From positions 46,054-110,053 of IMG/VR virus record IMGVR_UViG_3300037262_000003: a DNA stretch of 64,000 nt; one strand, written 5' to 3'. Below the pieces are notes generated by a model, which ran no database searches, had not been told where the DNA came from, and worked only from the letters and a program-made list of their open reading frames with translations. This document shows, one piece after another, positions 47,210-57,757 of the stretch (positions are counted from its first letter, which is position 1; each line of letters starts with the position of its first letter). Origin of the DNA: a virus. A program made the position numbers and the translations under genes.

Positions 47210-48016
47210 TTACTCTATTTTGAGATCCCTGCGGATCTCGCGATTCAGGTACGCTGCTATGGCGGGATTATCCCTGACGTACCTTATAGACTCTTCGGTG
47301 CCCTGCACCGTACGAGAGTCGGGCATCACATACCAGGCTCCTCGCTTAGTGACAATATCATGTTCTGTCCCTATGCGCAAGAGTTCTTCTGCCCAGTCAA
47401 TGCCCGATCCGGGTCTTATGACGTACTCGCAGGACTCTCCCGTCTTGAGGGAAGCCTCGATGACCTTGGAACCGTCCTGATGGGACTTGACGACCTTGAG
47501 GTTCAGTCTCTGACGTGCCTTCTCAGACAGGCCCGTTCCACGTATCGGGGAACGTTCCTTGTCACGGGGCTTGGAGATGAATATCACTGTCCCACCAGAC
47601 ATCTCTGCCTGATCAGCCAGGGCTGTCAGCTCGTCCTTGAACTCCCTGTGCGGGGAGGGCTGATACCAGGGATCGAAGTCAGGAGACTCCTCGAACTCCC
47701 TGCTGCGAATCAGCCCGCCAGCGTGATCAACAACGACCAGACCGGCTCGGATCTGTAGTGCGGCGGTAGTGATCGAGAATACCTCCTCAGCGGTCCTGGG
47801 AGCCACCACAGAGGCCCTAATAGCCCTATGCGGTACCTCTGACCCTACCGACACCCAGAGGCTCTCCAGGGGCGGCTCAAGGTCGTTTACGGTGTGCTGG
47901 GCCAGAGTGGTCTTACCCGTTCCGGTGCCACCCCAGATCTCAGCGATGAAGCCACGAAACCAACCACCGCCAAGCAGGCCATCTACGCCAATTGACCCGG
48001 TGCTTATGTACTCCAC
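47210..48016 (-). CDS. RecA-like recombinase
   Basis: 268 residues from GTG at 48016, six bases after AAGGAGG. Walker A GGTGTGKTT and Walker B LVVVDHAGG; C-terminal DWAEELLRIGTEHDIVTKRG, AWYVMPDSRTVQGTEESIRY and NPAIAAYLNREIR match the RecA C-terminal half. It is shorter than cellular RecA (about 340) because the N-terminal polymerisation helix is missing. Recombination or repair. Confidence 0.85.
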   Translation of the reverse strand: MEYISTGSIGVDGLLGGGWFRGFIAEIWGGTGTGKTTLAQHTVNDLEPPLESLWVSVGSEVPHRAIRASVVAPRTAEEVFSITTAALQIRAGLVVVDHAGGLIRSREFEESPDFDPWYQPSPHREFKDELTALADQAEMSGGTVIFISKPRDKERSPIRGTGLSEKARQRLNLKVVKSHQDGSKVIEASLKTGESCEYVIRPGSGIDWAEELLRIGTEHDIVTKRGAWYVMPDSRTVQGTEESIRYVRDNPAIAAYLNREIRRDLKIE

Positions 48017-48215
48017 TGTCAACCTCCTTAGACTTTCGTTCCTCAGCTATCTTCATGCCCACGTCGCCTCTGCGAACGAACAGTTCATCACCACGCCCGA
48101 ATGACTCTATGTGATCGGGCAGGTATGAGTCCCTCCAGTAGACAGTTCCGTACTTGTCGGTGATTGTGTAGTCAAGGGCATAGTCACCTTCCGATGCCCT
48201 TATCTCTACAGCCAT
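47940..48215 (-). CDS. Hypothetical protein, 91 residues
   Basis: First 65 residues (VEIRASEGDYALDYTITDKY, SFGRGDELFVRRGDVGMKIA) look like a small beta domain. The last 25 (RRWPAWRWLVSWLHR) come from overlap with the 5' end of the RecA-like gene. Confidence 0.6.
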   Translation of the reverse strand: MAVEIRASEGDYALDYTITDKYGTVYWRDSYLPDHIESFGRGDELFVRRGDVGMKIAEERKSKEVDSGVHKHRVNWRRWPAWRWLVSWLHR

Positions 48216-49538: not shown

Positions 49539-49541
49539 AGG

Positions 49542-49612
49542 CTTCGGAACAGGGACTCGAACCCCAATGAGCAGACTCAGATTCTGCCATCCTGCCATTA
49601 GATGATTCCGAA
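49542..49612 (-). tRNA. tRNA-Gln (CUG)
   Basis: Perfect acceptor stem, anticodon stem GCAGA/TCTGC with loop ATCTGAG, T-loop TTCGAGT. Discriminator G; CCA not encoded. Confidence 0.9.
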
Positions 49613-49613
49613 G

Positions 49614-49684
49614 TGCCCCCATGAGGATTTGAACCCCAATACGACGGGTAAAAACCGCCTGTCCTACCGTTGAACGATACGGGC
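49614..49684 (-). tRNA. tRNA-Lys (UUU)
   Basis: Anticodon loop TTTTTAC, T-loop TTCAAAT, one G-G mismatch in the acceptor. CCA not encoded. Confidence 0.88.
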
Positions 49685-49689
49685 ATATG

Positions 49690-49761
49690 TTTCGGGACAA
49701 AAGACTCGGACTTCAATCCTCGGCTTCAAAAGCCGGTGTCCTGCCATTAGACGATCCCGAA
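49690..49761 (-). tRNA. tRNA-Gln (UUG), atypical T-arm
   Basis: Perfect seven-pair acceptor and D-arm as in tRNA-Gln(CUG). Anticodon loop TTTTGAA. The T-loop reads TCCGAGT (C at 55) and its stem pairs imperfectly with a bulge. Confidence 0.75.
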
Positions 49762-49786
49762 ATATAAGTCTAATATATCAGACCGG

Positions 49787-49858
49787 TACCCCCCCAGGGA
49801 ATCGAACCCTGATTCACTGGGTAAGAGCCAGCTACTCTAGCCGTTGAGTTAGAGAGGT
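49787..49858 (-). tRNA. tRNA-Lys (CUU)
   Basis: Acceptor with two G-U pairs, D-stem ACTC/GAGT, anticodon loop CTCTTAC, T-arm CAGGG/CCCTG with TTCGATT. Confidence 0.92.
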
Positions 49859-49885
49859 ATATAGTGCCGGAATTTTGGGTTCCCT

Positions 49886-49907
49886 GGCGCTAGAGGTAAC
49901 TAGCGCC
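49886..49907. repeat. Eight-pair perfect hairpin between tRNAs
   Basis: GGCGCTAG and CTAGCGCC around a six-base loop, in the 69-base gap between tRNA-Lys(CUU) and tRNA-Arg(CCU). Possibly a processing site or a decayed tRNA arm. Confidence 0.5.
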
Positions 49908-49927
49908 CCGACACATGGGGGATCTCG

Positions 49928-49999
49928 CACTCTCGACCGGACTCGAACCGGTGTCTTCCGCTTAGGGGGCGGTAGATCTATCCACTGACCTACGAGAGT
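49928..49999 (-). tRNA. tRNA-Arg (CCU)
   Basis: Perfect acceptor, T-arm ACCGG/CCGGT with TTCGAGT, anticodon loop CCCCTAA. Its first base lies seven bases after the -10 box of the promoter at 50006. Confidence 0.9.
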
Positions 50000-50005
50000 G
50001 ATTCC

Positions 50006-50034
50006 ATGTTACTACGAAAATCTAGACCTGTCAA
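50006..50034 (-). promoter_or_regulatory. Promoter TTGACA-N17-TAACAT for tRNA-Arg(CCU)
   Basis: -35 at 50029-50034, -10 at 50006-50011, spacer 17. Expected start coincides with tRNA position 1 at 49999. The -35 contains the TGA stop of the NlpC/P60 gene. Confidence 0.75.
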
Positions 50035-50795
50035 CCCAACGTCCCGAATGTGATGGTGTCTCCACCCCAATCGAAGTTCTGGATCTGCACGTCCTGTCCC
50101 TGTGTTGGAGCCACGATCATGTCCTGGCCTCCCAGGAAGATACCTACGTGGTACACGTACGAAGCAGGATCGCTGTCATCGTGGAAGAACACCAAGTCGC
50201 CCGGACGGGCTTCGCTCTGGGGAATCATCTTGAAGAAGTTGAACTGATCGTCAGCTATTCTCGGCACTGTTGACCCTGCCTGCGCGTAAGCCCACTGTAC
50301 TAGGCCCGAACAGTCAAAGTCAACCCCTGGATCTTCGCCTCCGTAGACGTAGGGTACTCCTATCTGGCTCTCCGCGTACTGGACCACCTTCTGCCCGAGT
50401 GACCCTGAGGTCACTGTGTGAGTGGGCGTTGAACTGGGCGTCGGAGTAGGAGAGGGAGTGGATCGAAGTGTGAAAGTAGGGACAGGGGGCGCTATGACGG
50501 CAGCAGAGGTAGTGTCCGTAGTGACCTTGGCCACTGTTGCTACCTTCTTCTTGACTGCGATCTCAGTCACGATACGCCGAGGGTACATCTGCCACTGCGA
50601 AGGAATGTGGACAGGGGGTACTGCCTTGATCGGGGCAGTATTATGGATCGGCTCTGGATTAAGCTGCATGAGATCTGCCGTAGTGGCAGAATGGGGCATA
50701 GACGATCCTGACAGAAGAACGGCTGTCATTGCCGTTGCGGGCAATGCGACAGCCGTGAACTTCTTGATGATGTTAGGCTTACGGTGCTTTCCCAT
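50031..50795 (-). CDS. Secreted NlpC/P60 endopeptidase (lysis or entry peptidase)
   Basis: 254 residues. Basic N-terminus and hydrophobic helix (FTAVALPATAMTAVLLSGSS) form a signal peptide. A Pro/Thr linker (residues 101-127) leads to the NlpC/P60 domain with Cys162 (DFDCSGLVQWAYAQ) and His216 (YHVGIFLGG), which cleaves peptidoglycan stem peptides. A signal peptide suggests export by the host, as in some secreted endolysins. Lies inside the tRNA array. Confidence 0.88.
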   Translation of the reverse strand: MGKHRKPNIIKKFTAVALPATAMTAVLLSGSSMPHSATTADLMQLNPEPIHNTAPIKAVPPVHIPSQWQMYPRRIVTEIAVKKKVATVAKVTTDTTSAAVIAPPVPTFTLRSTPSPTPTPSSTPTHTVTSGSLGQKVVQYAESQIGVPYVYGGEDPGVDFDCSGLVQWAYAQAGSTVPRIADDQFNFFKMIPQSEARPGDLVFFHDDSDPASYVYHVGIFLGGQDMIVAPTQGQDVQIQNFDWGGDTITFGTLG

Positions 50796-50842
50796 ACTTC
50801 AAGGTAACATAACGGAGACGTTACCACAACCCTCCAGGTCAT

Positions 50843-50910
50843 TGGGGCAGCAGCCCGGACATGAACCGGGACCTATCTCTTCACAAGTCGTGCTCTATCC
50901 CGACAGCCCC
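50843..50910 (-). pseudogene. Degenerate tRNA, His-like
   Basis: Intact T-arm (CCCGG TTCATGT CCGGG) and partial acceptor (GGGGCTG with CTGCCCC, extra CTG before it), plus TTGTGAA resembling a His anticodon loop. The D/anticodon region is about eight bases short and the anticodon stem does not pair. Confidence 0.45.
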
Positions 50911-50949
50911 GACCGGTACCGGGCTGACTGTTTACACCACTGCTGCAAG

Positions 50950-51021
50950 AGCCAAGTCAGAGAATCGGACTCTGGACCTCATCCGTACCAAGGATGTGTT
51001 CTACCACTGAACTAACAAGGC
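50950..51021 (-). tRNA. tRNA-Thr (GGU), C55 T-loop
   Basis: Anticodon stem CATCC/GGATG with loop TTGGTAC, D-stem GTTC/GAAC, T-stem CAGAG/CTCTG with loop TCCGATT. Two T-T mismatches in the acceptor. Confidence 0.82.
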
Positions 51022-51114
51022 ATTGCCCGGACCTGCTCCATCCTCAGCCTACTTCTGCGTGGCAGGCTAATCTATTTGGATGGTCGGTATCCAGGGTTGG
51101 GGTATACACCAACG

Positions 51115-51185
51115 AGCCCCACCGAGGGATCGAACCCCGATTTACTCCGTACGAAGGAGTCGTTCTGCCATTTAACTAGCAGGGC
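51115..51185 (-). tRNA. tRNA-Thr (CGU)
   Basis: Anticodon stem ACTCC/GGAGT, loop TTCGTAC; T-loop TTCGATC. Full acceptor with two wobble pairs. Confidence 0.9.
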
Positions 51186-51307
51186 ATTTTAGTAGTCGCG
51201 CCCGTTTCTCCTCGGGCTCTCCTGTGACATCCGTTCATCCTGGCCTAGGAGTCGGTACAACCCACAGTCGGCATCTTGTCCTGCGCGCCAGACTTCTGCC
51301 GCGACCG

Positions 51308-51376
51308 TAGAGCGCCAGAGAGTCGAACTCTGTCATTGGGCTTAGAAGGCCCGAGCGGGCATCCGTCCCGCGCTCC
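51308..51376 (-). tRNA. tRNA-Arg (UCU)
   Basis: Acceptor GGAGCGC/GCGCTCT, loop CTTCTAA, T-arm CAGAG/CTCTG with TTCGACT. The D-arm is unusual: a five-pair GCGGG/CCCGC stem abuts the acceptor, leaving no standard U8. Confidence 0.82.
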
Positions 51377-51392
51377 ATATTTAGTTTACTTG

Positions 51393-51464
51393 AGCCTCTT
51401 GCAGGAATCGAACCCGCGTCACTTTCTTACAAGGGAAGCATACTCGCCATTGTACTAAAGAGGC
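51393..51464 (-). tRNA. tRNA-Thr (UGU)
   Basis: Perfect acceptor GCCTCTT/AAGAGGC, loop CTTGTAA, T-loop TTCGATT. Confidence 0.9.
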
Positions 51465-51559
51465 ATAAAAGCCCGTCTCTTCCTCTGGTCCCTACTCCGC
51501 AAATTCTGCTGTGTTCCCCACAGTCATATCGGATCTAAGGAGGGCATCCAGTCCTTGCG

Positions 51560-51630
51560 TACCCAATGAAGGTAATGCTCCCTCGTCCTCGCCTTGTAAG
51601 GGCGTTGCTCTCCTTTTGAGCTAATCGGGC
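51560..51630 (-). tRNA. tRNA-Val (UAC) with T-loop AGCATTA
   Basis: Acceptor GCCCGAT/ATTGGGT, D-stem GCTC/GAGC, anticodon loop CTTACAA, T-stem GAGGG/CCTTC. All four arms pair, length 71, but the T-loop AGCATTA lacks the TTC motif. Confidence 0.75.
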
Positions 51631-51681
51631 ATACGTGCCTTAACGTCGGCACCAGACGGGCGTAAGTGGAGTCGCCACCCG

Positions 51682-51756
51682 TACACCGTCAAGGAATTGA
51701 ACCTTGCTTAAACTAAGTTATCAGCTTAGCTCTCACAACCAGTGAGACTACAGTGC
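51682..51756 (-). tRNA. tRNA-Ile (GAU)
   Basis: Anticodon stem CTAAG/CTTAG, loop CTGATAA, T-arm CAAGG/CCTTG with TTCAATT. Positions 8-9 read AG instead of the usual TA. Confidence 0.88.
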
Positions 51757-51757
51757 G

Positions 51758-51830
51758 TGGAGAAGGTCGGACTCGAACCGACAGCCGTCTGCTTGCAAAG
51801 CAGTTGCTCTACCATTGGAGCTACATCCCC
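51758..51830 (-). tRNA. tRNA-Ala (UGC)
   Basis: D-stem GCTC/GAGC, loop TTTGCAA, T-arm GTCGG/CCGAC with TTCGAGT. Starts one base after tRNA-Ile(GAU). Confidence 0.9.
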
Positions 51831-51894
51831 ATAATGAGCGGTCCACTTACTCCACCATAGCAGTGTAAAGATTGGGCGTCATAACCACTCAAGC

Positions 51895-51916
51895 GTGCTG
51901 GTGTGCTGGTGTGCTG
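51895..51916. repeat. 8-bp tandem repeat GTGCTGGT
   Basis: Nearly three copies in the non-coding gap between tRNA-Ala and tRNA-Glu. The rest of this gap holds a T-arm-like palindrome (GGGTTCGAACCC, near 51964) that may be a tRNA fragment. Confidence 0.5.
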
Positions 51917-51987
51917 CCAGTTACAGCACAGCAAGTTATTGCCCGCAGGCTCACTCACTGGCGGGGTTCGAACCCTCACCACCAACG

Positions 51988-52058
51988 TAGCCCACGCCGG
52001 TTACGATCCGGCCTCAAGAGATTGAAAGTCTCCCGTTCTGCCACTAAACTAGTGGGCC
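51988..52058 (-). tRNA. tRNA-Glu (UUC) with A54-U58 T-loop
   Basis: Acceptor GGCCCAC/GTGGGCT, loop CTTTCAA, T-stem GCCGG/CCGGC with loop ATCGTAA, so the conserved U54 and A58 are exchanged. Confidence 0.85.
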
Positions 52059-52117
52059 AAGATACTTCGTTAGGTTCTTTAGTCTAGCATGTGGTGAAAG
52101 ACGAGTCAAACTACTTG

Positions 52118-52190
52118 CGCTCGCGACGGGATTCGAACCCGCCCTAGCACCTTGACAGGGTGCCGTGCTTACCGCTGACACTACGCGTGC
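52118..52190 (-). tRNA. tRNA-Asp (GUC)
   Basis: Loop CTGTCAA, stem GCACC/GGTGC, T-loop TTCGAAT; one A-A mismatch in the acceptor. Confidence 0.9.
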
Positions 52191-52230
52191 ATGATCCCAG
52201 TTTTTAACGTGGGTGAGGCCACGTGTGAGG

Positions 52231-52262
52231 ATATCCTCACATCCATGTGGATGTGAGGATAT
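52231..52262. terminator. 15-pair perfect hairpin, loop TG
   Basis: ATATCCTCACATCCA and its exact reverse complement are separated by two bases; the left arm also belongs to an 18-base palindrome (52224-52241). It directly follows the micro-protein gene at 52273. No U-tract, so termination, processing or a protein-binding site are all possible. Confidence 0.6.
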
Positions 52263-52272
52263 TATCACAAGC

Positions 52273-52347
52273 CTATCGACGGTAGTAGCCTACGCCGCCG
52301 CCAAGTAGCAGGACAATGAGAACGACTACGATGATAATCAGTAGCAT
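52273..52347 (-). CDS. 24-residue membrane micro-protein
   Basis: AAAGGAG with ideal spacing precedes ATG. The product is one hydrophobic helix (MLLIIIVVVLIVLLLGGGVG) ending YYRR, like DUF3309-type tiny membrane proteins. It lies between tRNA genes and a 15-pair hairpin. Confidence 0.7.
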   Translation of the reverse strand: MLLIIIVVVLIVLLLGGGVGYYRR

Positions 52348-52380
52348 GGTATCTCCTTTCGTCCTTATCACCGTACCACG

Positions 52381-52453
52381 TATCAGTAACGGGGATCGAA
52401 CCCGTAGCCTCCTGGTTGAGAGCCAGGTGATCTGCCAATTGATCTATACCGAC
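52381..52453 (-). tRNA. tRNA-Glu (CUC)
   Basis: Stem CCTGG/CCAGG, loop CTCTCAA, D-stem GATC/GATC, T-loop TTCGATC. Confidence 0.9.
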
Positions 52454-52454
52454 G

Positions 52455-52526
52455 TGGTTCCCAGAGGGATCGAACCTCTGCGCTCCGGGCTTCAACCGGG
52501 TGCTCTACCAACTGAGCTAGAGAACC
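52455..52526 (-). tRNA. tRNA-Phe (GAA)
   Basis: Acceptor GGTTCTC/GGGAACC, D-stem GCTC/GAGC, loop TTGAAGC, T-loop TTCGATC. Confidence 0.9.
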
Positions 52527-52567
52527 ATAAGAATGGGCTTTTAACGTCATCACCCGAGGACGAGTTG

Positions 52568-52638
52568 AGTCCCACGCGGGGTTCGAACCCACGCTAGCAC
52601 CTTGGCAAGGTACTGTGCTACCACTACACCAGTAGGAC
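52568..52638 (-). tRNA. tRNA-Gly (GCC)
   Basis: Acceptor GTCCTAC/GTGGGAC, loop TTGCCAA, T-loop TTCGAAC. Five bases downstream of the predicted start of the promoter at 52650. Confidence 0.92.
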
Positions 52639-52649
52639 ACCGTGCTCCC

Positions 52650-52678
52650 AGTTTAAGTCAGGAAGCCATGACTGTCAA
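52650..52678 (-). promoter_or_regulatory. Promoter TTGACA-N17-TAAACT for tRNA-Gly(GCC)
   Basis: -35 at 52673-52678, -10 at 52650-52655. Predicted start about 52643, five bases before the tRNA. Confidence 0.7.
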
Positions 52679-52749
52679 GACCGTGCTGTTCTTGCTTTTT
52701 ACGGATGACAGAACAGCAAACACTTTCGTCCCACCAAGTGTGTTGGGAG

Positions 52750-52820
52750 AGCCTCATGCCGGTACTGCCCCGGCTCTGAATGCTTGGAAGGCACTCGTGC
52801 AACTTTCACACCCATAAGGC
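52750..52820 (-). tRNA. tRNA-Gly (UCC) with T-loop GGCAGTA
   Basis: Acceptor GCCTTAT/ATGAGGC, stem AGTGC/GCATT, loop CTTCCAA, T-stem GCCGG/CCGGC. T-loop GGCAGTA lacks TTC, the D-loop has no GG pair, and positions 8-9 are GG. All stems pair. Confidence 0.7.
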
Positions 52821-52858
52821 ACCGTGGCGTTTTAAAGACTCGCCATGTCTGCTTTACG

Positions 52859-52932
52859 TAGCGGAAGCGAGATTCGAACTCGCGTCGTGCGGCTTATGAG
52901 GCCGGGCTGGGTCCTCTCCAGTCCATTCCGCT
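52859..52932 (-). tRNA. tRNA-Met/CAU
   Basis: Acceptor AGCGGAA/TTCCGCT, loop CTCATAA, T-arm GCGAG/CTCGC with TTCGAAT. The A1-U72 pair is unlike bacterial initiators. Could also be Ile with lysidine; not decidable by eye. D-arm atypical. Confidence 0.82.
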
Positions 52933-52940
52933 ATGAATAA

Positions 52941-52969
52941 ATCTATCACACTGTCGTAGTGTTTGTCAA
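52941..52969 (-). promoter_or_regulatory. Promoter TTGACA-N17-ATAGAT for tRNA-Met
   Basis: -35 at 52964-52969; -10 at 52941-52946. Predicted start about 52934, two bases before the tRNA. Confidence 0.65.
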
Positions 52970-52970
52970 G

Positions 52971-53042
52971 TCGGCTCGGTGGGGATCGAACCCACTTAAC
53001 TACCTTATAAGAGTAGCGCCTTAACCAGTAGACGACGAGCCA
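52971..53042 (-). tRNA. tRNA-Ile (UAU)
   Basis: Stem CTACT/GGTAG, loop CTTATAA, T-arm GTGGG/CCCAC with TTCGATC. Reads AUA directly. Confidence 0.88.
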
Positions 53043-53043
53043 G

Positions 53044-53124
53044 AGGAAGGATGACGAGTCGAACGCCATGGTTACCCACGTTTCGCTTTCAAGGCGATCT
53101 CAGGCCCGGCCTGATTAACCTTCC
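53044..53124 (-). tRNA. tRNA-Ser (UGA)
   Basis: 81 bases with a long variable arm (CGTGG/CCATG). Anticodon loop CTTGAAA, T-loop TTCGACT. Confidence 0.82.
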
Positions 53125-53125
53125 G

Positions 53126-53194
53126 AGCACAGTATGAGAATCGGACTCATCTTCGTAGGTTTGCAATCTACGCCCATCCCAGATGGAACCATGC
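53126..53194 (-). tRNA. tRNA-Cys (GCA), C55 T-loop
   Basis: Acceptor GCATGGT/ACTGTGC, anticodon loop TTGCAAA, T-stem ATGAG/CTCAT with TCCGATT. Shortened D-arm (CCATC/GATGG, three-base loop) and A31-C39 mismatch. Confidence 0.75.
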
Positions 53195-53199
53195 AAGCC

Positions 53200-53245
53200 G
53201 GTCCAAGCTTCCGCTGTAGAGGAATTTCCTCAGACTGCCTGGACC
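53200..53245. repeat. 46-nt structured spacer between tRNA-Cys and tRNA-Ser
   Basis: Outer GGTCCA/TGGACC and inner GAGGAA/TTCCTC stems. No tRNA fold found. Confidence 0.45.
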
Positions 53246-53249
53246 CGAG

Positions 53250-53332
53250 CGGAGAGCTGAGGGCACGATCCCCAACGCCGAGACGCCGCGCTCGTTAGCA
53301 GCGAGGCCCGTTCCCTGAACGGTTAACTCTCC
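53250..53332 (-). tRNA. tRNA-Ser (GCU) with A54-U58 T-loop
   Basis: Acceptor GGAGAGT/GCTCTCC, discriminator G, loop CTGCTAA, long variable arm, T-stem TGGGG/CCTCA with loop ATCGTGC. Confidence 0.82.
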
Positions 53333-53347
53333 ATGTACAGTGTAGCT

Positions 53348-53428
53348 TTACTTCTCAAGACACCAGTCTGCGTGGCACGTCGTAGGACGCCCGCAGTAAT
53401 GGCACACTAGGTTCCTCAATATCCTCAT
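53348..53428 (-). CDS. Leaderless micro-protein, 26 residues
   Basis: ATG lies exactly six bases after the -10 box TATTCT of the promoter at 53435. Product MRILRNLVCHYCGRPTTCHA with CHYC and two more Cys, zinc-binding candidate. Size makes it uncertain. Confidence 0.45.
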   Translation of the reverse strand: MRILRNLVCHYCGRPTTCHADWCLEK

Positions 53429-53434
53429 GAAACG

Positions 53435-53463
53435 AGAATAACACTGAGTTTCTAGAATGTCAA
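53435..53463 (-). promoter_or_regulatory. Promoter TTGACA-N17-TATTCT
   Basis: -35 at 53458-53463 includes the TGA stop of the gene at 53460-53630; -10 at 53435-53440. Confidence 0.7.
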
Positions 53464-53630
53464 CCCTCGACCCCAGGCCCGCGAGTCTCAGACCACTCCA
53501 GCCCGCAGTGGTAGCACTTCCAGAAGTCAGTGTGCCACGGGCGACCCTGACGATCACGACCGTTGGCTGTGCCTGTCTTGTGGGGATCTATGTGATTCCC
53601 GCCTCTGCACTTCGGCTTCGCTCTAGGCAT
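53460..53630 (-). CDS. Small zinc-ribbon-like protein, 56 residues
   Basis: AAGGAG eight bases before ATG. PKCRGGNHIDPHKTGTANG and FWKCYHCGLEWSE; three Cys and several His suggest zinc binding. Located between tRNA-Ser and tRNA-Leu. Confidence 0.7.
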   Translation of the reverse strand: MPRAKPKCRGGNHIDPHKTGTANGRDRQGRPWHTDFWKCYHCGLEWSETRGPGVEG

Positions 53631-53642
53631 TATGACTCCTTG

Positions 53643-53725
53643 TACGCCAGGTGGGGCTCGAACCCACACGTCCCTAGGACATCGCCTTTTGAGGACGACG
53701 CGTCTACCAATTTCACCACTAGCGC
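53643..53725 (-). tRNA. tRNA-Leu (CAA)
   Basis: 83 bases with long variable arm, stem TCGTC/GGCGA, loop CTCAAAA, T-arm GTGGG/CCCAC with TTCGAGC. Confidence 0.9.
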
Positions 53726-53793
53726 ATGGTCTGCCGTTGCCTATCGGAGCATATAGCCCGTAAGTGGGCCAATCTAGCAGGACGTACCTTGCG

Positions 53794-53865
53794 TCGGGAC
53801 TCTGGGAGTCGAACCCAGTTTCTCCTAGATCCGAACTAGGCAGATTACCGTCTTCCTCAATCCCG
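53794..53865 (-). tRNA. tRNA-Pro (CGG)
   Basis: Stem CCTAG/CTAGG, loop TTCGGAT, T-arm CTGGG/CCCAG with TTCGACT. D-arm nearly identical to tRNA-Pro(UGG). Confidence 0.9.
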
Positions 53866-53873
53866 TTAACTCA

Positions 53874-53945
53874 ACGACCTGCTGGGACTCGAACCCAGTC
53901 CTGCCGCCCTTTTTCACGAGGAACCACCCTCGCTACTCGGGGCCG
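53874..53945 (-). tRNA. tRNA-like element, identity uncertain
   Basis: Clear T-arm CTGGG TTCGAGT CCCAG. The acceptor CGGCCCC/CAGGTCG has five of seven pairs and no convincing anticodon stem; GTGAAAA could be a GAA loop. Probably decayed. Confidence 0.35.
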
Positions 53946-54004
53946 CTGTGCGCCCATACACTGCTGGTCTCATGAACGTGCTGGTTAGGCTGTCCATGTG
54001 AGCG

Positions 54005-54076
54005 TCAAGCGCCTTGGAGTCGAACCAAGTTTCTCCTGTTTCCAAAACAGGCAGATTACCGTCTTCCTCGCGCCTG
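54005..54076 (-). tRNA. tRNA-Pro (UGG)
   Basis: Stem CCTGT/ACAGG, loop TTTGGAA, T-arm CTTGG/CCAAG with TTCGACT. Confidence 0.92.
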
Positions 54077-54086
54077 ATGTCAAGCG

Positions 54087-54157
54087 TACACCCGAGAGGA
54101 TTCGAACCTCCAACTCGTGGTTCGTAGCCACGTGGTTATCCCTTAGCCTACAGGTGC
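54087..54157 (-). tRNA. tRNA-Arg (ACG)
   Basis: Stem CGTGG/CCACG, loop CTACGAA, T-loop TTCGAAT. Confidence 0.9.
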
Positions 54158-54191
54158 ATAACGGACGAGTTTAAAGAGTTCCCGACTCTTG

Positions 54192-54263
54192 CTCTCCCGC
54201 CTGGGTACGATCCAAGACGAGCAGATTAACGGTCTGCCATGCTGCCAATTACATCACAGGAGA
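54192..54263 (-). tRNA. tRNA-Asn (GUU) with A54-U58 T-loop
   Basis: Acceptor TCTCCTG/CGGGAGA, stem GCAGA/TCTGC, loop CCGTTAA, T-stem CTTGG/CCAGG with loop ATCGTAC. Confidence 0.85.
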
Positions 54264-54970: not shown

Positions 54971-57757
54971 TTATCTGATCGGGCAAGCCCCTGACGCACA
55001 TTCCTCTGAGATACTATCACTCGTCCTAGTTGCTTCTGCCACTTGGTAGGCGGCCTCAGAGATCCTGGTGTAGGGTGCCTGATCTCTGGTGGCATCTACC
55101 ATGATAGTTGTTCCCTTGAGCTTTGGCAAGTACGCCCGAAGTATACCGTCCAAGGCTTCTGGTGTCACTGTTCCCTCAGGCACGTTAGCTGTGTAGGATA
55201 TAGCGTTATCCGCCCAGTGCTTCTGGTAGAACGCCTGTAGCTCAAGCATGTCTTCGATTGAGACCTGCTCGGCAGACTCAACCAGATCTACATCCAGCCC
55301 GAGGGCTCGCACCTGAGACACTAGCAGATTCTCAGTAGGAAAGCAAACCACAGCAGTCATGCCCGACTCATCGTAGACATCAGTCTCGACCTTGAATCCC
55401 TGCTGCTGGAATGCCTGGACCTGCTCGAACTCCCTGTCGTCCCTCAACGAGAAACGTACCCTCTGGATGAACCAGCGGGCGTAGATCGCCTGGATACCCT
55501 CGCTCACACCTGGAAGCTTCGACACCGAACCCGTGGGAGCCACCGTAGTGACCTTGACGGGAGCCGGAATGCGAAGCTCGACGGCGTAATCGTTAGCTTC
55601 CTGACGTACGGTGTGATAGAGATGTCGCAGTAGTCCCTGAGGGCTCACGATGCCGTTATCACGCTGCTTGGCGATCTCACTGTACTTCAACTCGTACGCC
55701 TTGGCGAAAAAGCCCTGGACACCCATGTGCCCGACACCGATACGACGGTTCCTGTCCTGAATGACCTTCTGCTTGGGATCTGTGATGTCCCCGAAGGTGC
55801 TACGTACCAGGAAGCGCGTAACCAGGCGATGAGCCTCAAGCAGGAGCTGAGGATCGAAGCCACAGGCTACTTCCTTGTTCACGAACCAGTCTAGGTTAAC
55901 GTGGCCTAGATTGCAAGCCTCCCAAGCCTCTAGCGGGATCTCGCCGCAGTTAGCCGACATGACGCCCGACATGTGCCCTGCAATGGGTTCCGGGTCAAGC
56001 ACGATGTATGCGTGGCTGTCATCCACAGTACCGTTGTACACATCTGCACGACCTGCGGGCTCTACCGACACGACCTTGTGATTCGGTGAGTGCCCGTCCA
56101 TTCCATTTTGCTGACGCAGAGGCATGTCATAACGCCTGTGACCAAGTTCGGTCATTAGCGCTAGATTATCCATACCATTGTTAGTGCCGTCACCGTCTAT
56201 GTGCGCTACGTTGATTCCATCAGGAAGCTCAGTGCCCAGGAAGTTCTCCCAGAGCATACGGTGTGTCCACTGGTGGTTGGCAGCATTCCTGTCGCTATCC
56301 CACCCGTGAATCCTCTCGTGCCCGCTGGAATCTCTGCTAGCAGAGAACGCCCGAATCGACTGACCCTCGCGAAGATGCTGCGCCTGTACCTTCTCCCCAC
56401 GGAATGAGAAGAAGTTATGGTCCGGAGTACAACGCACTTCTAGACCACTGTCGAACGTGACCTTCAGAATTTCTGTGTTCTTTCGGGTCAGTCGTGGCTG
56501 ACGCATCCACCTAACGACGGGCTTCTTAGTCTTTGGATGCCAGGAGTAGACCTGAACATCTTCTCCGACCTCTGCTAGATCCTTAAAAGTTCTTGGACCA
56601 TCGATGGTAGCGATAACAGTATCGCCAGTCAAGCATGGGTTCGTTGCGATGATCGTACCAGGCTCACCCTCGTTTGACAAGTCTGAGTTCCAGTAGCCCG
56701 GCTCACCGTTCTTGAGCACGGCCTCGCAGACCGCCTTGTGGACCTGACGTGCCCAGGCTACATTACCAGTCTGATCATCAAGAGCAGCAAGGAACTCGTT
56801 GTCAATCTCGACTGAGATGTTGGTGGTCCAAAACTTGGAGCCATCCGCCTTGGCGTTGATGAAGTCTATGATGTATGGGTCGTCCCAGTGGCACATGCTC
56901 ATGCGAGCTGAACGACGCTTGCCGCCAGCGATGGCCCCGACCGAGATGACATGATCCATCTCCATAATATCGACTGGGGAGAAATGACCCACTGACCATG
57001 CACGGTTCAGGACGCTCACAATATCGTGAAGCATCTTAGCCAACGGGGCAGGACCGGAAGCCACACCGCCTGATGACACAAGAGGGGAACCCTCGGGGCG
57101 AATCTTGGACAGATCCAAGAATATCGAGACCGGGCGATCCGCCTTACCGTAAATGCTCATGGCCTCATCGATAACATGTGACAGAGCTACAGCCCATCCC
57201 TCACGAGTGTCTTCCACGAGACAAACACCATCGGAGTAGTGACGGGCAGCGTGAGCGACTTCCTTGTCGAATACGTCAGAAGAAGCCAGATACTCGCGCA
57301 TCTTCTCGTAATCAGTATGAGTCTCATCCGCAGCGAGGATCAGGTTGATCGGGTGCTTGGGATATCCGTAGTGCTCGAAGAGTCTGGTGCTGTAATTAGC
57401 CCCGACACCGCCGCCTTCCACCAGTCGCATGAACGTGAATGCGAAGTGGTCGGAGAACTTCTGGCCCCAGCCACTCACGTGACAGTTGAACAGGAACTGA
57501 CGGCCCTCGACACCACTCGCCCATAGCTGACGACCCGCAGGGAGAATGGCCATATTGCCCATGTAGTAGTTGAGGCTGTCGTACTCCTTCCAGACCTCCT
57601 TGCTCCACGTGCTCTGGTGACCATACACGAGTGAGAGGTTTCCACGTGCAACACGGGCAACGGTCTCGGGCCAAGTCTCGTAATTACCGTCTGGCTTGAC
57701 ACGTGAGTACGTCCGCCTGTACACAGCCTCACCAGTGGGGCCAAATGGGGTTGCCAA
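54971..57757 (-). CDS. nrdJ: Adenosylcobalamin-dependent (class II) ribonucleotide reductase with intein
   Basis: 928 residues from TTG at 57757, AAGGAG six bases upstream. The host protein is about 699 residues after intein removal. FLFNCHVSGW carries the first redox Cys; NP/CGEIPLEAWEACNLGHVN is the active-site motif interrupted by the intein; VAPTGSVSKLPGVSEGI follows; the C-terminus ECASGACPIR holds the redox Cys pair. Class II is B12-dependent and needs no small subunit. It converts ribonucleotides to deoxyribonucleotides for phage DNA synthesis. Transcribed from the terminator-promoter composite upstream. Confidence 0.93.
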   Translation of the reverse strand: MATPFGPTGEAVYRRTYSRVKPDGNYETWPETVARVARGNLSLVYGHQSTWSKEVWKEYDSLNYYMGNMAILPAGRQLWASGVEGRQFLFNCHVSGWGQKFSDHFAFTFMRLVEGGGVGANYSTRLFEHYGYPKHPINLILAADETHTDYEKMREYLASSDVFDKEVAHAARHYSDGVCLVEDTREGWAVALSHVIDEAMSIYGKADRPVSIFLDLSKIRPEGSPLVSSGGVASGPAPLAKMLHDIVSVLNRAWSVGHFSPVDIMEMDHVISVGAIAGGKRRSARMSMCHWDDPYIIDFINAKADGSKFWTTNISVEIDNEFLAALDDQTGNVAWARQVHKAVCEAVLKNGEPGYWNSDLSNEGEPGTIIATNPCLTGDTVIATIDGPRTFKDLAEVGEDVQVYSWHPKTKKPVVRWMRQPRLTRKNTEILKVTFDSGLEVRCTPDHNFFSFRGEKVQAQHLREGQSIRAFSASRDSSGHERIHGWDSDRNAANHQWTHRMLWENFLGTELPDGINVAHIDGDGTNNGMDNLALMTELGHRRYDMPLRQQNGMDGHSPNHKVVSVEPAGRADVYNGTVDDSHAYIVLDPEPIAGHMSGVMSANCGEIPLEAWEACNLGHVNLDWFVNKEVACGFDPQLLLEAHRLVTRFLVRSTFGDITDPKQKVIQDRNRRIGVGHMGVQGFFAKAYELKYSEIAKQRDNGIVSPQGLLRHLYHTVRQEANDYAVELRIPAPVKVTTVAPTGSVSKLPGVSEGIQAIYARWFIQRVRFSLRDDREFEQVQAFQQQGFKVETDVYDESGMTAVVCFPTENLLVSQVRALGLDVDLVESAEQVSIEDMLELQAFYQKHWADNAISYTANVPEGTVTPEALDGILRAYLPKLKGTTIMVDATRDQAPYTRISEAAYQVAEATRTSDSISEECASGACPIR
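55949..56635 (-). mobile_element. Intein with HNH homing endonuclease in the reductase active site
   Basis: Residues 375-603 of the reductase. Begins CLTGDTVIATIDG (N-terminal splice block) with RCTPDHNFF (TxxH block), contains an HNH domain (GINVAHIDGDGTNNGMDNLA), and ends VYNGTVDDSHAYIV...GVMSAN before Cys. The penultimate residue is Ala instead of the usual His. Insertion is exactly before the catalytic Cys of NPCGE. Confidence 0.88.

Follow-up and report, generated by a model that had tools for sequence, protein, structure and literature searches.

Two tRNA genes in a phage tRNA array carry A18 and G55 in place of the canonical elbow residues

Introduction

How could a tRNA whose T-loop lacks TTC build its elbow, and could such a molecule still serve in translation? 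The standard tRNA elbow is held by the contacts U54-A58, G18-pseudouridine55 and G19-C56. Outside mitochondria and a few special tRNAs, both the TTC T-loop and the contact of G18 with pseudouridine55 are, to our knowledge, regarded as near-universal. The question was raised by two tRNA genes located in a 64,000-nucleotide stretch of viral DNA (hereafter the window), which corresponds to positions 46054-110053 of a 110,053-base IMG/VR virus record.

Results

The phage and its tRNA array

The window belongs to a contractile-tailed phage, with tail sheath, baseplate, portal and terminase as marker genes. The terminase shares 54-55% identity with its counterparts in the Streptomyces phages BRock, GiJojo, pSt2308, LuckySocke and Alone3. 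The nearest relative, and the only close one available for comparison, is an uncultured phage (IMGVR_UViG_3300028800_000112, hereafter G002) with a 74% identical terminase; using the RNR and NlpC/P60 neighbour proteins as queries returned no additional close relatives.

Both tRNA genes are part of an array of about 30 genes on the minus strand (49540-54263). The array contains 24 genes called by ARAGORN, the tRNA-Val and tRNA-Gly studied here, and Cys, Ser(UGA) and probable His genes that ARAGORN missed. Most of these tRNAs are canonical, and only two of the approximately 30 present the A18/G55 elbow described below. The array also includes an inverted repeat (GTGAGGATATCCTCAC-type) at 52222-52271. 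Elsewhere in the window, at 54971-57757 and 47210-48022 (minus strand), we observed an RNR gene with an HNH-like, intein-like insertion and a RecA-like frame that resembles RecA at its two ends only.

Both genes fold as cloverleafs

The tRNA-Val(UAC) gene lies at 51560-51630 and the tRNA-Gly(UCC) gene at 52750-52820, both on the minus strand, and the sequence confirmed the T-loops AGCATTA and GGCAGTA that a first-pass annotation had assigned to them. With the D-loop in square brackets, the anticodon loop in parentheses and the T-loop in angle brackets, tRNA-Val (51630-51560) reads GCCCGAT TA GCTC[AAAAGGA]GAGC A ACGCC(CTTACAA)GGCGA GGAC GAGGG<AGCATTA>CCTTC ATTGGGT A, and tRNA-Gly (52820-52750) reads GCCTTAT GG GTGT[GAAAGTT]GCAC G AGTGC(CTTCCAA)GCATT CAGA GCCGG<GGCAGTA>CCGGC ATGAGGC T.

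Each cloverleaf has arms of 7, 4, 5 and 5 pairs, with 7-nt anticodon and T-loops. The sole mismatch is the 27-43 position of tRNA-Val (A27/A43), and thus the earlier description of fully paired arms applies to tRNA-Gly and not to tRNA-Val. The anticodon loops, which the same annotation had considered good, are CTTACAA (anticodon UAC at 51596-51598) and CTTCCAA (anticodon UCC at 52786-52788), both with U33. The tRNA-Gly discriminator is U73, like that of bacterial tRNA-Gly. In its D-arm, G14 and U21 are unusual and accompany G8; this G8/G14/U21 set was found again in a few other tRNAs.

We have scored the two genes with a cloverleaf scanner that is blind to sequence, including that of the T-loop. 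tRNA-Val and tRNA-Gly scored 34.0 and 35.5, respectively, with nothing reaching 31 in 800 kb of random sequence of equal dinucleotide make-up, and nothing reaching 28 in about 100 kb of the phage's own genome outside the array. Hence, the two cloverleafs are not explained by chance. The minimum free energy fold was the cloverleaf in both cases (z of about -2.6 and -2.3). ARAGORN called neither gene. The Rfam tRNA model (RF00005) matched tRNA-Val with 46.7 bits, against a threshold of 29, and tRNA-Gly was absent from its matches even at E values up to 10.

The two tRNAs keep G19 and C56 and replace the other elbow residues

From the canonical elbow set (G18, G19, U54, U55, C56 and A58), G19 and C56 alone are retained in both tRNAs. 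The D-loop of tRNA-Val, AAAAGGA (51611-51617), reads A14 A15 A16 A18 G19 G20 A21 in the 7-nt register, with A18 at 51614 and G19 at 51613, and its T-loop (51573-51579) reads A54 G55 C56 A57 U58 U59 A60. In tRNA-Gly, the D-loop GAAAGTT (52801-52807) has A18 at 52804 and G19 at 52803, and the T-loop (52763-52769) reads G54 G55 C56 A57 G58 U59 A60. The 54-58 pair is A-U in the former and G.G in the latter.

The combinations A54/G55/U58 and G54/G55/G58 bear out the earlier claim that neither tRNA can carry T54, pseudouridine 55 or m1A58. The D-loop contact was also correctly predicted to be non-standard, being A18/G55 in both molecules; what the first reading overlooked is the coordinated change of G18 to A18. 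It had noted the lack of the D-loop GG in tRNA-Gly, and this is literally true, but G19 is retained there, and tRNA-Val also has A18, its GG being G19-G20.

Positions 18 and 55 change together across viral tRNAs

A single tRNA-shaped pattern, in which positions 18 and 55 alone were varied, was run against viral contigs. A18 with G55 matched at least 120 stretches, compared with 10 for A18 with U55 (about eight of them cloverleafs) and three for G18 with G55. Of the 123 A18/G55 sites, 121 formed cloverleafs with no more than three mismatches, and 20 anticodons were represented.

The association was also counted over the tRNAs of all fetched loci, leaving out those matched by the search pattern. 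Since the automatic D-loop register misreads a few tRNAs as GG (the window tRNA-Val, for example), the main statistics were restricted to 7-nt D-loops, for which the register was fixed as 14, 15, 16, 18, 19, 20 and 21. These tRNAs comprised 272 with G18/U55, 142 with A18/G55, eight with A18/U55 and four with G18/G55 (Fisher p 4e-97, a value inflated by related sequences, which are not independent). The 54-58 pair was U-A, A-U or G.G in 312 of 329 A18/G55 tRNAs, and positions 19 and 56 covaried as well (G-C 430, A-U 8, U-A 2). The A18/G55 class covers all 20 amino acids, with discriminator bases as in canonical tRNAs and with G3:U70 in 13 of its 15 Ala tRNAs. The window tRNA-Val and tRNA-Gly and their G002 orthologues fit this class, as they combine A18 and G55 with G19 and C56.

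Six named phages were checked, and the tRNAs recovered from them all fell outside the A18/G55 type, suggesting that the class is uncommon among cultured isolates. A search of named isolates for close copies of three A18/G55 tRNAs found none. We found no description of A18/G55, or of non-TTC T-loops in phages, in the open-licence literature, although an earlier report may exist.

The altered elbow is conserved in the nearest relative

Random loop mutation in related phages, a possibility that the first-pass annotation had considered, was not observed in G002, which keeps A18, G55 and C56 in both tRNAs. The T-loop of its tRNA-Val is unchanged and the D-loop is AAAAGAA; its tRNA-Gly has T-loop GGCGGAA and D-loop AGAAGCA, and the tRNA-Met that this gene adjoins has TGCAACT and AACAGTA. 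The window and G002 tRNA-Val are identical at 60 of 71 positions and show three pairing-preserving double changes. The two tRNA-Gly are identical at 46 of 71 positions, with five such changes and one pair broken, which brings the total to eight double compensatory changes in the stems. As read from these alignments, the changes point to selection on structure and not to decay. tRNA-Gly may be the weaker molecule of the two, considering its G8, G14 and U21 and the U53/U61 mismatch and poor predicted cloverleaf of the G002 orthologue.

Among 323 tRNAs of the phage group, all 10 with G55 have A18, and C56 is present in 323 of 323. Five of these ten are an independent tRNA-Phe(GAA) of other related phages, with T-loop TGCGATT; in environmental relatives (L122-L126) its D-loop is GAGGCAGTTAA, which has 11 nt and a register that we inferred. 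In BRock-like and more distant environmental phages, the Val(UAC) and Gly(UCC) tRNAs have the usual TTC in their T-loops.

tRNA-Gly adjoins tRNA-Met in the window phage, in G002 and in the BRock-like relatives, and this constant neighbour favours descent of tRNA-Gly in place. When the loops were masked, the body of tRNA-Val gave mixed similarities, the nearest sequences being canonical tRNA-Val and A18/G55 tRNA-Val, tRNA-Trp and tRNA-Ile of other phages. Judged by this mixed similarity, in-place change and exchange appear indistinguishable as the origin of the Val gene.

Other unusual tRNAs of the two phages

Two further tRNAs of the array, tRNA-Asn(GUU) (54192-54263) and tRNA-Arg(CCU) (49928-49999), both on the minus strand, have C33 at a position where U33 is near-universal (loops CCGTTAA and CCCCTAA, respectively); the G002 tRNAs with these anticodons have U33. 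A second and milder T-loop variant, ATCGTNN, is found in tRNA-Glu(UUC) (51988-52058), tRNA-Ser(GCU) (53250-53332) and the same tRNA-Asn, all on the minus strand, and is present in other phages too. Here, the 54-58 pair has become A-U and U55 is retained, as is G18 in tRNA-Glu and tRNA-Asn. In the tRNA-Lys(CUU) of G002 (L027, 1502-1572, minus strand), A8-U14 replaces U8-A14 together with G54.G58, and A8-U14-G21 is also found in other phages and in bacteria, in tRNAs for Lys and Thr.

A18/G55 tRNAs also occur in cellular genomes

In genome contigs, the A18 and G55 pattern matched at least 118 stretches, nearly all cloverleafs, from Verrucomicrobia, candidate-phylum bacteria, SAR11-type bacteria and Micrarchaeota. 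In one SAR11-type family, 19 of 32 genomes carry a single, invariant tRNA-Thr(GGU) with A18, G55, A54 and U58 (loci L268, L278, L291, L294, L297, L311, L315 and L323). The canonical-form Thr(GGU) pattern gave only three matches in the family, none of them tRNA-gene-like. In one SAR11-type genome, the A18/G55 tRNA is the sole Thr(GGU) among 30 tRNAs retrieved, one of which was unparsed, and the remaining parsed tRNAs are canonical. This supported that the A18/G55 elbow is compatible with normal translation, and by its sequence the SAR11-type tRNA-Thr(GGU) is apparently a housekeeping tRNA. In candidate-phylum bacteria (L263-L380), we have also observed an initiator-like tRNA-Met with A1.A72, and Pro and His tRNAs that combine the T-loop TGCAA with A18.

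In Chthoniobacter flavus, the canonical tRNAs are dispersed, and a separate, supernumerary array is mostly A18/G55. Only two of 115 genomes of its phylum matched the A18/G55 pattern, and thus these tRNAs are distributed sporadically, as mobile elements would be. Work on Anabaena has reportedly described long, horizontally spread bacterial tRNA arrays (L-arrays). Such arrays are supernumerary, hold many isotypes and stand beside a canonical set; the same is seen in C. flavus and others, where the arrays are mostly A18/G55, whereas the window holds a phage array in which canonical tRNAs prevail. Among 297 actinobacterial genomes, the pattern matched one, the seed genome itself, which makes the phage hosts an unlikely source of the class. 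Inheritance from the host was rejected on this near-absence from the sampled actinobacterial genomes.

Discussion

We consider it probable, at roughly 0.7, that the window tRNA-Val and tRNA-Gly are working translation tRNAs whose elbow is formed by alternative, covarying tertiary contacts. This reading draws on features taken from the sequences themselves, namely the cloverleafs and their persistence in G002, the linkage of A18 with G55, the swapped 54/58 pairs, the retention of G19-C56, the normal discriminators and the presence of this elbow in a cellular tRNA-Thr(GGU) that is apparently the sole one of its genome. Their role in the phage would presumably be the reading of GUA and GGA, which make up 16% of the Val and 20% of the Gly codons, respectively, in 18 long open frames; the two tRNAs would be expressed, charged by host synthetases and used by host ribosomes.

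In the standard elbow, D-loop residue 18 lies intercalated between residues 57 and 58 of the T-loop, and the flat face of the G19-C56 pair is a recognition site for the ribosome, RNase P and others (PMC4810234). The UGNRA T-loop is a type R1 lonepair triloop in which the G commonly pairs with an outside A, originating a composite GNRA tetraloop (PMC2258182), and the T-box T-loop consensus sequences are AGAGA and UGxRA (PMC7583486). In the elbow that we propose, G55 stands for U55 and A18 for G18 within the same molecules, and the intercalated A18 would complete G55-C56-R57 to a composite GNRA tetraloop, with A18 and G55 as a sheared pair. The 54-58 closing pair is exchanged for A-U in tRNA-Val and G.G in tRNA-Gly. 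G19-C56 is kept, and its face would serve RNase P, the ribosomal L1 stalk and other elbow readers, so that processing and translation would be possible without T54, pseudouridine 55 or m1A58. The model agrees with all the covariation observed; its A18.G55 geometry is borrowed from other RNAs, and loops with A54-U58 or G54.G58 are not strict UGNRA.

The nearest precedents are the A18/G55 tRNAs of other phages and bacteria and the UGNRA T-loops of rRNA and riboswitches. In the latter, as in the interdigitated T-loops of T-box stem I, the second-position G is able to pair with an outside, intercalated A. Those loops are, however, not tRNA elbows, whereas in the window tRNAs the D-loop supplies the A, next to a retained G19-C56. 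Compared with the canonical bacterial and phage elongator tRNA (RF00005), exemplified by the BRock-like phages and including the Val(UAC) and Gly(UCC) counterparts of related phages, the window pair has the same cloverleaf, anticodon loops, discriminators and G19-C56, but has A18-G55 for G18-U55 and A-U or G.G for U54-A58. The first-pass annotation had likened the two tRNAs mainly to some organelle tRNAs, and this comparison was not supported. Mammalian mitochondrial type II tRNAs resemble them in being without the canonical G18, G19 and T-psi-C motifs, but have no D-loop/T-loop interaction (PMC7609411). Here the contact appears rebuilt, with G19-C56 in place, and the covariation of 18/55 and 19/56 across the class ruled out an elbow loss of the organelle type.

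As an alternative, the two genes could be decaying copies whose elbow was lost when selection relaxed, the phage having host tRNAs at its disposal as well. Phage tRNAs are often redundant with those of the host, and tRNA-Gly does deviate at core positions 8, 14 and 21, its G002 orthologue being broken at 53-61. Yet the T-loop of tRNA-Val is the same in two phages whose terminases have diverged to 74% identity, the compensatory stem changes go along with intact anticodon loops and discriminators, and decay would not swap 18 and 55 together over hundreds of unrelated tRNAs. We regard decay as quite improbable, and a pseudogene origin was rejected on the compensatory changes and the conserved T-loop.

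It is also conceivable, though unlikely, that the altered elbow hides the phage copies from tRNA-cleaving or elbow-reading host enzymes. Phage tRNAs evade anticodon nucleases through sequence changes, the PARIS nuclease AriB recognises its target in part through a D-loop base (PMC12409363), and phage and host tRNAs would indeed differ, given the single match in 297 actinobacterial genomes. Such an escape fits poorly with the presence of the elbow in bacterial arrays and in what is apparently a housekeeping tRNA-Thr in SAR11-type bacteria, and with its restriction to two of about 30 phage tRNAs; no nuclease of such specificity was identified here. A non-translational role as aminoacyl donors, as in the staphylococcal tRNA-Gly set for peptidoglycan bridges, is very hard to sustain. 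It would accommodate a tRNA-Gly changed at 18 and 55, and Streptomyces enzymes do use aminoacyl-tRNA in the cell wall (PMC4052509). The staphylococcal non-proteinogenic tRNA-Gly, similar in having an altered D-loop 18-19, is defined by UU or CU at these positions (PMC4052509), whereas the window tRNA-Gly has AG; it also carries G49-C65 and C51-G63 where the staphylococcal set has the weak EF-Tu pairs A49-U65 and A51-U63. A cell-wall tRNA-Gly of the staphylococcal kind was rejected on these residues, and the elbow is moreover shared by tRNAs for Val, Met, Ile and every other amino acid.

Returning to translation tRNAs with alternative elbow contacts, their likeliest origin would be exchange with a mobile pool of A18/G55 tRNAs. 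The possible gains would be that the tRNAs do without T-loop modification, or that host enzymes reading the elbow fail to recognise them. A broader proposal, which we hold with about even confidence, is that a second tRNA elbow exists beside the universal G18-pseudouridine55: a pseudouridine-independent A18.G55 pair on a composite GNRA loop, used for all 20 amino acids, circulating as a mobile repertoire among phages and bacterial arrays, and having entered the housekeeping tRNAs of a few lineages (the SAR11-type tRNA-Thr and the initiator-like tRNA-Met of candidate-phylum bacteria).

Gene finders rely on the TTC T-loop and the G18 contact, and ARAGORN overlooks both genes described here. As a natural covarying replacement, the A18/G55 elbow would indicate that G19-C56 is essential and that the other elbow contacts are exchangeable as a set. 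Natural tRNAs unable to take pseudouridine 55 would make it possible to test directly the role of TruB-type modification and of recognition by RNase P and the L1 stalk, and the A18/G55 elbow would mark a mobile tRNA pool common to phages and bacteria.
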